Positions 28,626 through 41,474 of a DNA stretch of 44,523 nt are shown here, in pieces. Every line of letters starts with the position of its first letter. Position 1 is the stretch's first letter. The DNA comes from Muribaculaceae bacterium (GTDB lineage: Bacteria > Bacteroidota > Bacteroidia > Bacteroidales > G3-4614), in NCBI GenBank assembly GCA_017546805.1, contig JAFYRT010000017.1, forward strand, positions 1 to 44,523. The letters run 5' to 3'. Both the position numbers and the translations under genes were made by a program. Below the pieces are notes generated by a model, which was not told where the DNA came from, searched no databases, and saw only the letters and a program-made list of their open reading frames with translations.

Positions 28626-28656
28626 TTTGTCATATTAAAATTTTTACATACCTTTG
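28626..28656 (+). promoter_or_regulatory. Promoter of the B12 locus
   Basis: TTTG (28626-28629) and TACCTTTG (28649-28656) with a 19-base spacer. The predicted start near 28663 coincides with the beginning of the riboswitch. Confidence 0.75.
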
Positions 28657-28664
28657 CAAGCGCA

Positions 28665-28835
28665 ACGGTTCTCATAAGAAGATTAAAAGGGAATAGGGTG
28701 AAAATCCCTGACAGTCCCGCTGCTGTGAGTTCCACTATCAAGGCTTGGAGTGCCACTTTTATGCGACATAGCATAATGGGAAGGCAATCCTGAATAAAGC
28801 CGGAACGAGTCAGAAGACCTGCCGATGCATATTAC
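28665..28835 (+). ncRNA. Cobalamin riboswitch
   Basis: The aptamer shows the conserved elements in order: aaaagggaatagggtgaaaatc-type P3 region (28685-28706), ccctgacagtcccgctgctgtgag core (about 28707-28730), and the B12 box AGTCAGAAGACCTGCC at 28808-28823. Edges are approximate. It precedes a TonB receptor gene by about 120 bases. Binding of adenosylcobalamin normally lowers expression of such loci. The stretch 28836-28956 is the expression platform; I see no classical terminator in it, so control of translation is more likely. Most of the 28504-28956 gap is accounted for by this element and its promoter. Confidence 0.96.
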
Positions 28836-28956
28836 TAACAGCTTTCGAGGAAAGAGCGTGTGGTGTCAAAAAAAGAGGAATAGCCCTTCATATCTAATGC
28901 CCTTATAGGCAACATCCGCATCAGCTTATCTACTCAAAGCATTTACAACCAAGCGG

Positions 28957-40590: not shown

Positions 40591-40637
40591 AGAGGTTGTC
40601 TTATCTCCAACAAGAGAAAAGGCAACCTCTTTTTTTA
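40591..40637 (+). terminator. Terminator after rng
   Basis: Stem agaggttgtc (40591-40600) / ggcaacctct (40621-40630), ten pairs including one G-T, followed by a run of T to 40636. Confidence 0.88.
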
Positions 40638-40700: not shown

Positions 40701-41001
40701 TAAATTTGCATTACCTAGTCAGCCCACGGGGGTGGGTTGAGGGGATTTTTGATAATAGACGTTTACATTACGTTAATCTTCATCGTTCAAACTTCGCAAC
40801 TTTGAAACCCAACAGAAGATACGGCAATGGCAACGTCCATGTGTGTGTTTATTCATAACTCATATGAATTGGACAAAAATGTTCAACGTGAGTGTTGTAT
40901 AATCATTTGGCGTGGGCTGGCTGCATTGCTTATCTTGTTGGGGGGCAATGCGAAGGCCTGAACGAAAGATGAGCAGAAGTACAACTCCCACGTCTTTTTT
41001 T
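40701..41001 (+). ncRNA. Candidate structured RNA or leader, family not recognised
   Basis: A -7-like TAAATTTG (40701-40708) is followed by several hairpins. tcagcccac/gtgggttga lies at 40719-40740. ATCTTC/GAAGAT (40776-40781 with 40815-40820) encloses TTCAAA/TTTGAA. gtcca/tggac encloses ATTCATA/TATGAAT (40851-40857 with 40863-40869). A closing stem, 40886-40899 with 40980-40993, has 12 of 14 pairs, encloses GCATTGC/GCAATGC, and is followed by seven T (40995-41001). It may be a free-standing RNA of about 285 bases or an attenuator for the lipoprotein genes. It does not show RNase P, tmRNA or SRP RNA signatures. The -33 element is not evident. The remainder, 41002-41099, shows nothing further that I can name. 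Confidence 0.5.
40839..40961 (+). CDS. 40-codon ORF inside the structured RNA region
   Basis: ATG 40839 to TGA 40961. The product starts MCVFIHNSYELDKN and ends WRGLAALLILLGGNAKA, a hydrophobic stretch ending in an AxA-like motif right at the stop, like a signal peptide with nothing behind it. Its second half coincides with the stems at 40886-40993. It could be a leader peptide or a chance reading frame in a conserved RNA. No clear ribosome-binding sequence is seen. The reading frame after the stop continues open for some distance but has no further motif. Confidence 0.3.
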   Translation: MCVFIHNSYELDKNVQRECCIIIWRGLAALLILLGGNAKA

Positions 41002-41099
41002 GCATAACGCCTTCGAAATTGGCATTTTATAAATATACTGTTAGGAGAGTTGACAGTAACGATAAAGAATATTGTTAAACTCAAAACAGAATATTTATA

Positions 41100-41474
41100 A
41101 TGAAAACGACATCTAAAATAGGCTCAATCTCTCGAGCACTATTATTCCCTATTATCATCTTCATAGCATCAACAACTGCTCTGTTCACAACATCATGCTC
41201 AGGAACAGATTTTGAAATATACTGCTCGATATACGGCAGCATAACAGACTACGAAACAGGCGAACGCCTCGAAAATGTAAGTGTCGTACTCTCTCCCACA
41301 AACAAAACTTTCAGAACAGAAAACGGAGGAACCTTCGTATTCGAAGAACTTGAACCCGGAGAATACACCATAACCGTACAAAAAAGCGGATATAAACCAA
41401 ACCGAAAAACAGTTACGGCAATAAGTGGAGAGACCACAAATATTGACATACCAATGACAAAAATACCAGAATAA
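41100..41474 (+). CDS. Small lipoprotein with carboxypeptidase-regulatory-like domain
   Basis: 124 residues. The signal peptide ends in lipobox TTSC near residue 33. Residues about 44-120 form a single CarboxypepD_reg-like beta domain (GSITDYETGERLENVSVVLS, then GTFVFEELEPGEYTITVQKSGY). The domain is clearly related to the N-terminal domain of the next gene's product, down to the closing IP dipeptide. It lies 15 bases upstream of that gene, so the two are probably one operon behind the structured leader. No catalytic residue is expected in this fold. Confidence 0.82.
   Translation: MKTTSKIGSISRALLFPIIIFIASTTALFTTSCSGTDFEIYCSIYGSITDYETGERLENVSVVLSPTNKTFRTENGGTFVFEELEPGEYTITVQKSGYKPNRKTVTAISGETTNIDIPMTKIPE

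Follow-up and report, generated by a model that had tools for sequence, protein, structure and literature searches.

A multicopy Bacteroidales leader RNA with two covarying, mutually incompatible folds, probably a transcription attenuator

The DNA analysed here, referred to below as the window, is a stretch of 44,523 nucleotides from a Muribaculaceae bacterium (contig JAFYRT010000017.1), and all features described at the locus are on its + strand. The rng-like gene upstream of the locus carries its own intrinsic terminator at about 40591-40637 (AGAGGUUG and CAACCUCU plus a T-run, read from the sequence), and the leader that follows is therefore a separate transcription unit. A -7 promoter box, TAAATTTG, lies at 40701-40708 and belongs to the consensus TAnnTTTG, which is that of the primary sigma factor of Bacteroides and Bacteroidetes (PMC7366714). 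The leader RNA of about 290 nt spans 40714-41001, its 5' end being placed from the box and its 3' end being the U-run. The closing stem of its last domain pairs GGCGUGGG (40909-40916) with CCCACGUC (40987-40994) and is followed by exactly seven T (40995-41001). The terminator region of stem and U7 (40909-41001) stands 98 nt ahead of the first downstream gene (41100-41474), a lipoprotein-like gene with a CarboxypepD_reg/PEGA-type domain (Pfam E 4e-17) that is presumably the regulated one; no TAnnTTTG box was found in the 98-nt gap between the U-run and this gene. The RNA at 40711-41003 has a predicted folding energy of -103.2 kcal/mol, compared with -75.1 +/- 5.0 for dinucleotide shuffles (z = -5.65), and none of 200 shuffles was as stable; the 3' domain folded alone gave z = -2.7. 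The original prediction, made from the letters of this stretch, had described a -7-like box ahead of a structured RNA whose closing stem runs directly into seven T. Box, stem and T-run are all present at these positions, and the claim of structure is borne out by the folding z of the whole RNA and by homologues with many compensatory changes.

The locus is no singleton: it is one member of a multicopy family that roughly one in five Bacteroidales genomes carries. Searching 60 related genomes at the DNA level retrieved homologues in seven besides the window's own genome, and their alignment was used to build R1, a covariance model covering the 3' domain in 104 positions; a second model (R2) was built from 64 copies. 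The family's distribution rests on these 3' domain models, whose E-values are rough. Of 393 genomes from the order Bacteroidales, R1 was positive in 87 and R2, at E<=1e-4, in 86 (49 of 206 genera); ten candidates were scored per genome, so prevalence and copy number in these large surveys are lower bounds. Across 345 genomes of the phylum, the sole R1-positive genome was the window's own (0 of the 344 others). In a smaller survey that scored up to 132 candidates in each genome, carrier genomes had between 1 and 18 copies and the window's own had 4, and all 94 loci of one scan (94/94) scored as model matches. Carriers include Bacteroides bouchesdurhonensis, B. caecigallinarum, Paraprevotella clara, Prevotella ihumii and Xylanibacter rarus, with plasmid carriers in Phocaeicola dorei, P. 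vulgatus and B. finegoldii. Matches in genomes labelled Firmicutes or Clostridia were also seen at L173 (CASFAX010000077.1) and L197 (JAJPZA010000132.1), contigs that are likely mis-binned Bacteroidales. Further copies sit on Bacteroidaceae plasmids or contigs classed as viral, namely L248 (NZ_CP072250.1 53931-54187), L249 (NZ_OY725942.1 28437-28498), L245 and L247; the leader therefore travels with mobile DNA.

The leader could not be matched by eye to a known RNA family in the original prediction, and this held when catalogues were searched. Rfam 15 returned only chance matches for the leader region at E<=10, far below the gathering score, and in 20 homologous loci no Rfam match overlapped the leader, the tRNA and SRP RNA matches there being neighbours. 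At one of the loci (L020:1924-2107, -), a Bacteroidales small SRP RNA (RF04183) and a tRNA adjoin the leader copy. The positive control for the scan, a cobalamin riboswitch (RF00174) at 28649-28840 (+) of the window, was found with 104.8 bits. 6S RNA (RF00013) was considered and rejected, with no match at E<=10 in the window's own genome and, in the rest of the 9 genomes scanned, only a hit of 14.7 bits, which is at chance level. The Bacteroidales-1, Bacteroides-1/-2 and Bacteroid-trp motifs are structured RNAs restricted to this group (PMC2864571); unlike them, the leader has no Rfam model match at E<=10. Literature on the motif sequence or on Bacteroidales attenuators (open-licence papers, preprints excluded) yielded no matching description. 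We rate the family as an uncatalogued, new class among cis-regulatory leader RNAs.

Helices were evaluated by comparing the RNA duplex energy of strands from the same copy with that of strands from different copies (2000 permutations), using a main set of 103 dereplicated copies and, for replication, 94 copies not used in discovery. The resulting z values ignore phylogeny and are to be read as ranks rather than probabilities, and relatedness alone is an unlikely source of them because kinship also makes mismatched pairs similar. In the 103 copies, the observed values for P5, P14, P7, P6, P4, P3, P1, P0, P11 and P12 each lay beyond all 2000 permutations, and the discovery and replication sets were concordant; two unrelated segment pairs, included as a control, had no excess complementarity. 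The alignment of homologues and covariation check proposed with the original prediction thus returned compensatory changes in the stems, replicated in the 94 independent copies.

One set of these helices forms a long rod, in which P5, P4, P14, P11, P12 and P7 are nested and the 5' half of the leader pairs with the 3' half. P5a (40783-40789) pairs with P5b (40959-40965; z -40.3, and -36.9 in the independent set), and P4a (CUUCGCA, 40792-40798) with P4b (UGCGAAG, 40949-40955; z -15.0), with the compensatory variants UCUCGCA:UGCGAGA and UCUGGUA:UACCAGA. P14a (40808-40814) pairs with P14b (40936-40942; z -39.0). P11a (GCAAYG, 40823-40829) pairs with P11b (CRUUGC, 40923-40929; z -7.1); GCAAC occurs 92 times with CGUUGC and 0 times with CAUUGC, and GCAAU 24 times with CAUUGC and 11 times with CGUUGC. 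P12a (40835-40842), the 5' strand of the putative antiterminator helix, pairs with 40910-40917, so that the rod buries the 5' arm of the terminator (z -7.1, with -4.5 and -8.6 in two copy sets). The variable hairpin P7 (40845-40906; z -19.0) caps the rod. A side observation concerns two copies from a single genome, L043 and L044 (both G047), which keep the shared core and have wholly different P5 and P14 sequences, the strands of each copy being complementary to one another; such differences may prevent cross-pairing between leaders.

The other state consists of the terminator hairpin (P1-P3) and P6. P6a (40776-40781) pairs with P6b (40815-40820; z -16.6). Within the terminator hairpin, the 5' arm P1a (40909-40916) pairs with the 3' arm P1b, which together with U7 occupies 40987-41001 (z -11.4), and P3a (40929-40935) pairs with P3b (40967-40973; z -11.4), with changes on both sides in 6 of 7 P3 pairs. 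Column counts for P1 and P3 are concordant with this, in alignments that were fitted to P1/P3 and thus lean their way. P1 and P12 are mutually exclusive because both need P1a, and since the loops of P6 and P3 hold strands of the lower rod, these hairpins would, judging from the geometry, be hard to keep together with it. P1a has a third competing partner besides P1b and P12a, namely P0a. This 5' strand (P0a/P10a, 40719-40728) pairs either with P0b (40911-40921; z -8.6) or with P10b (40732-40740; z -19/-16), a neighbouring sequence that in the window imitates P1a. The complementarity of P0a takes in P1a together with the bases that follow, and between copies there are compensatory changes such as CAGUUAGCCCA with UGGGCUAACUG and GCGGAAGCC with GGCUUCCGC; P0 does not hold throughout the family, being weak or missing in part of it, and 102 of 157 copies pass E<=-12 with >=5 P1a bases. 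The matched-versus-mismatched duplex tests on the 94 independent copies thus support two predicted folds that are incompatible with each other. The chain of local stems in the original prediction was right as to a structured RNA and missed its main feature, the pairing of the 5' half with the distant 3' half, which excludes the terminator.

Of the remaining elements, the local hairpin P8 (GACGUUUACAUUACGUU, 40758-40774) is conserved family-wide (z -6.3/-7.5), and near-invariant blocks are TCGCAA, GCAAYGG, GGCAATGCGARRGCC and GCGTGGGCT. Three further candidates were rejected. P2 (GCRUUGC with GCAAUGC), first taken as a pseudoknot partner of P3, had no covariation in either set, its 5' strand pairing with GCAAYG in P11 instead; P9 (GCAGACAU with AUGUCUGC) and P13 (P6b with P3a) were unsupported in the duplex test. 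P15 (P6a with P3b) gave a weak signal only.

The pairing data also bear on whether the family acts as RNA at all. A repeat, an inverted repeat or the end of a mobile element, acting as DNA with no RNA function, would fit the multiple copies, the patchy distribution and the copies on plasmids and viral contigs. However, G-U accounts for 16% of the pairs in P5, single steps from G-C to G-U occur often, the copies differ greatly except in pairing, and their position is fixed between promoter and gene, all of which makes such an element very improbable.

Gene calls around the copies, made with a simple ATG-ORF rule, place the leader consistently before a gene. In 146 of the 155 copies with enough flank (94%), the next gene downstream runs in the same direction as the leader, at a median gap of 67 nt from the U-run (quartiles 52 and 94.5), while for upstream genes this is so in only 91 of 144. 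TAnnTTTG occurs at the RNA 5' end in one alignment column in 122 of 157 copies and inside the gap in 6 of 129 cases, and 149 of 157 copies have a T-rich run at the 3' end of the terminator. On this comparison, the family reads most naturally as a 5' leader, with expression of the gene depending on transcription past the terminator. A free-standing ncRNA, the first of the three options listed in the original prediction, is unlikely to explain the family fully, given the co-oriented gene found at this spacing in 94% of copies. In its fuller form, that option would be a family of terminated, trans-acting sRNA genes of about 290 nt that stand before genes by chance. Such sRNAs would have their own promoter box and strong terminator, as seen here, and were termination to dominate, the terminated RNA would build up; Bacteroides is also known to have multicopy sRNA families (FopS, PMC11697453). 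The co-orientation, the narrow gap and the almost constant lack of any other promoter speak against it, since a gene lacking a promoter would stay silent if the terminator ahead of it were complete, and we regard it as improbable. FopS sRNAs themselves are trans-acting, 65-70 nt long, and intergenic, antisense or 3' UTR-derived (PMC11697453). The leader resembles FopS and GibS of Bacteroides in being a multicopy Bacteroidales RNA family with sigma-ABfr promoters (PMC11697453), but it is some 290 nt long and tied to a downstream gene, and it does not belong to FopS, whose short length likewise argues against a free sRNA here.

We consider it probable that the leader is a cis-acting transcription attenuator of a new RNA family. 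Transcription would start just 3' of 40708, and the nascent RNA would fold in either of two incompatible ways. In the rod state, P12a would hold P1a and RNA polymerase would continue into the lipoprotein genes, so that the rod would be the ON state; in the terminator state, P6 and P3 would form, P1a would pair with P1b, and transcription would stop at U7. The 5' end would be a third input, with P0a either taking P1a or being locked in P10. The choice between the states would presumably be regulated, with a ligand, a protein or another trans factor biasing the fold. This proposal draws on covariation for each helix of both states, on the shared strands, on the promoter, the terminator and the place before a gene, and on the energies that ViennaRNA, run without pseudoknots, gives for the two states in the window (-102.0 kcal/mol for the rod, -88.4 for the terminator state). 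The alternative helices P12 and P0 covary, both use the P1a strand, and both exclude the terminator stem; an intrinsic terminator (P1/P3 stem and T-rich run) stands before the gene; and the promoter lies upstream and the co-oriented gene 3', almost always with no promoter between. An attenuating leader for the lipoprotein genes is accordingly the best supported of the three options originally listed. Against the attenuator stand the weakness or absence of P0 in part of the family and the regulated genes, which share no pathway that names an effector. ViennaRNA's strong preference for the rod also counts against it: in 145 of 157 copies P1a is placed in the region of P12. Given this preference, termination would need kinetics, pseudoknots or a factor outside the model. 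MFE folding of truncated transcripts, as a mechanical imitation of co-transcriptional folding, gave no sign of P0 or P1 winning, so the ON/OFF logic is not derivable from energies.

The downstream genes are diverse. LRR_5/BspA proteins account for 11 of 121, and other products include lipoproteins, CarboxypepD_reg/PEGA proteins, protein kinases, FHA proteins, outer-membrane barrels and MBOAT proteins, as well as defence-type genes (SspB, a type II methyltransferase and AbiGi). Of 129 products, 70 look exported when judged by a crude signal/lipobox test. Pfam and PADLOC surveys of the downstream genes found no single theme or metabolic pathway. We would like to note that three copies, L197:3616-3915 (-), L172:4003-4407 (+) and L187:7525-7797 (-), precede one small protein family that begins with a twin-arginine-like SRREFFKxAAK, has a tail rich in Cys and Gly (CNGSCS...) and resembles a modified-peptide precursor.

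The most specific form of the attenuator reading is an orphan riboswitch class, in which the core (P4, P11, P12 and the joining segments) would bind a small molecule or ion that shifts the balance. We hold this as possible, with rather more doubt than belief. Near-invariant blocks in a bistable leader with an integrated terminator suggest it, as do the many copies before diverse genes, a situation also seen with second-messenger riboswitches, and the HMP-PP riboswitch is a precedent for a terminator-embedded aptamer (PMC6478431). The absence of a common downstream pathway weighs against it, and part of the conservation is explained by strands with two or three partners; the high conservation of P1a and P12 can stem from these several partners and is on its own no proof of ligand binding. 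Control of the attenuator by a trans-acting protein (an RNA-binding or NusG-like antitermination factor) or by another RNA, in place of a small molecule, would suit a regulon of unrelated accessory genes, the patchy genome distribution and the conserved promoter-proximal position, though we judge it somewhat unlikely.

Known systems offer partial parallels. Like the HMP-PP/thiS riboswitch, a terminator-embedded aptamer (PMC6478431), and attenuators generally, the leader stands before a gene, has conserved bases in and around an intrinsic terminator, and has an exclusive alternative fold. Unlike the compact, terminator-sized HMP-PP/thiS, it is about 290 nt long with a long-range 5'-3' rod, and unlike both this riboswitch and attenuators generally it has no common downstream pathway and is found in Bacteroidales only. 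The leader also resembles the cobalamin riboswitch (RF00174) in being a long leader RNA with upstream sequence pairing with the regulatory hairpin, but it has no match in the scan that finds the genuine one at 28649-28840. In the cobalamin riboswitch, an upstream loop sequence pairs inside the regulatory hairpin of a long leader.

Bacteroidales are dominant gut bacteria whose post-transcriptional control has been described only sparsely, and the cis-regulatory RNA classes peculiar to them are few. A large multicopy leader with two covariation-supported folds before surface and defence genes would amount to a regulatory layer common to these genes, and the unusually diverse gene set would be a direct handle for finding the signal. 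The family may be a new riboswitch-like class that places unrelated accessory genes at up to about 18 loci per genome under one signal via premature termination, a proposition to which we give a little less than even weight. If so, the accessory genes would comprise surface proteins, signalling kinases, defence and modification genes and plasmid genes, and the leader would form a global regulatory layer of gut Bacteroidales. Human-gut isolates carry the leader (on a plasmid of Phocaeicola dorei CL06T03C03, and in P. vulgatus and Bacteroides finegoldii), so laboratory testing is feasible.

The third option listed originally was a regulatory leader peptide encoded by the embedded ORF, and attenuation through it now appears scarcely credible. 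The ORF (MATSMCVFIHNSYELDKNVQRECCIIIWRGLAALLILLGGNAKA) is present in the window, with 44 codons from ATG 40827 or 40 from ATG 40839, and it overlaps the last domain as had been described, but a functional role for it is unsupported, since it is not conserved. Relatives that are 84% identical (L002 and L003) have internal stops and frameshifts, meeting them within about 20 codons, and the frame is also broken in L051. The first start codon exists because P11a is GCAAUG here, most copies having GCAACG. The signal-peptide-like segment of the ORF is a coding shadow of the conserved P1a/P11b/P3a RNA sequence.
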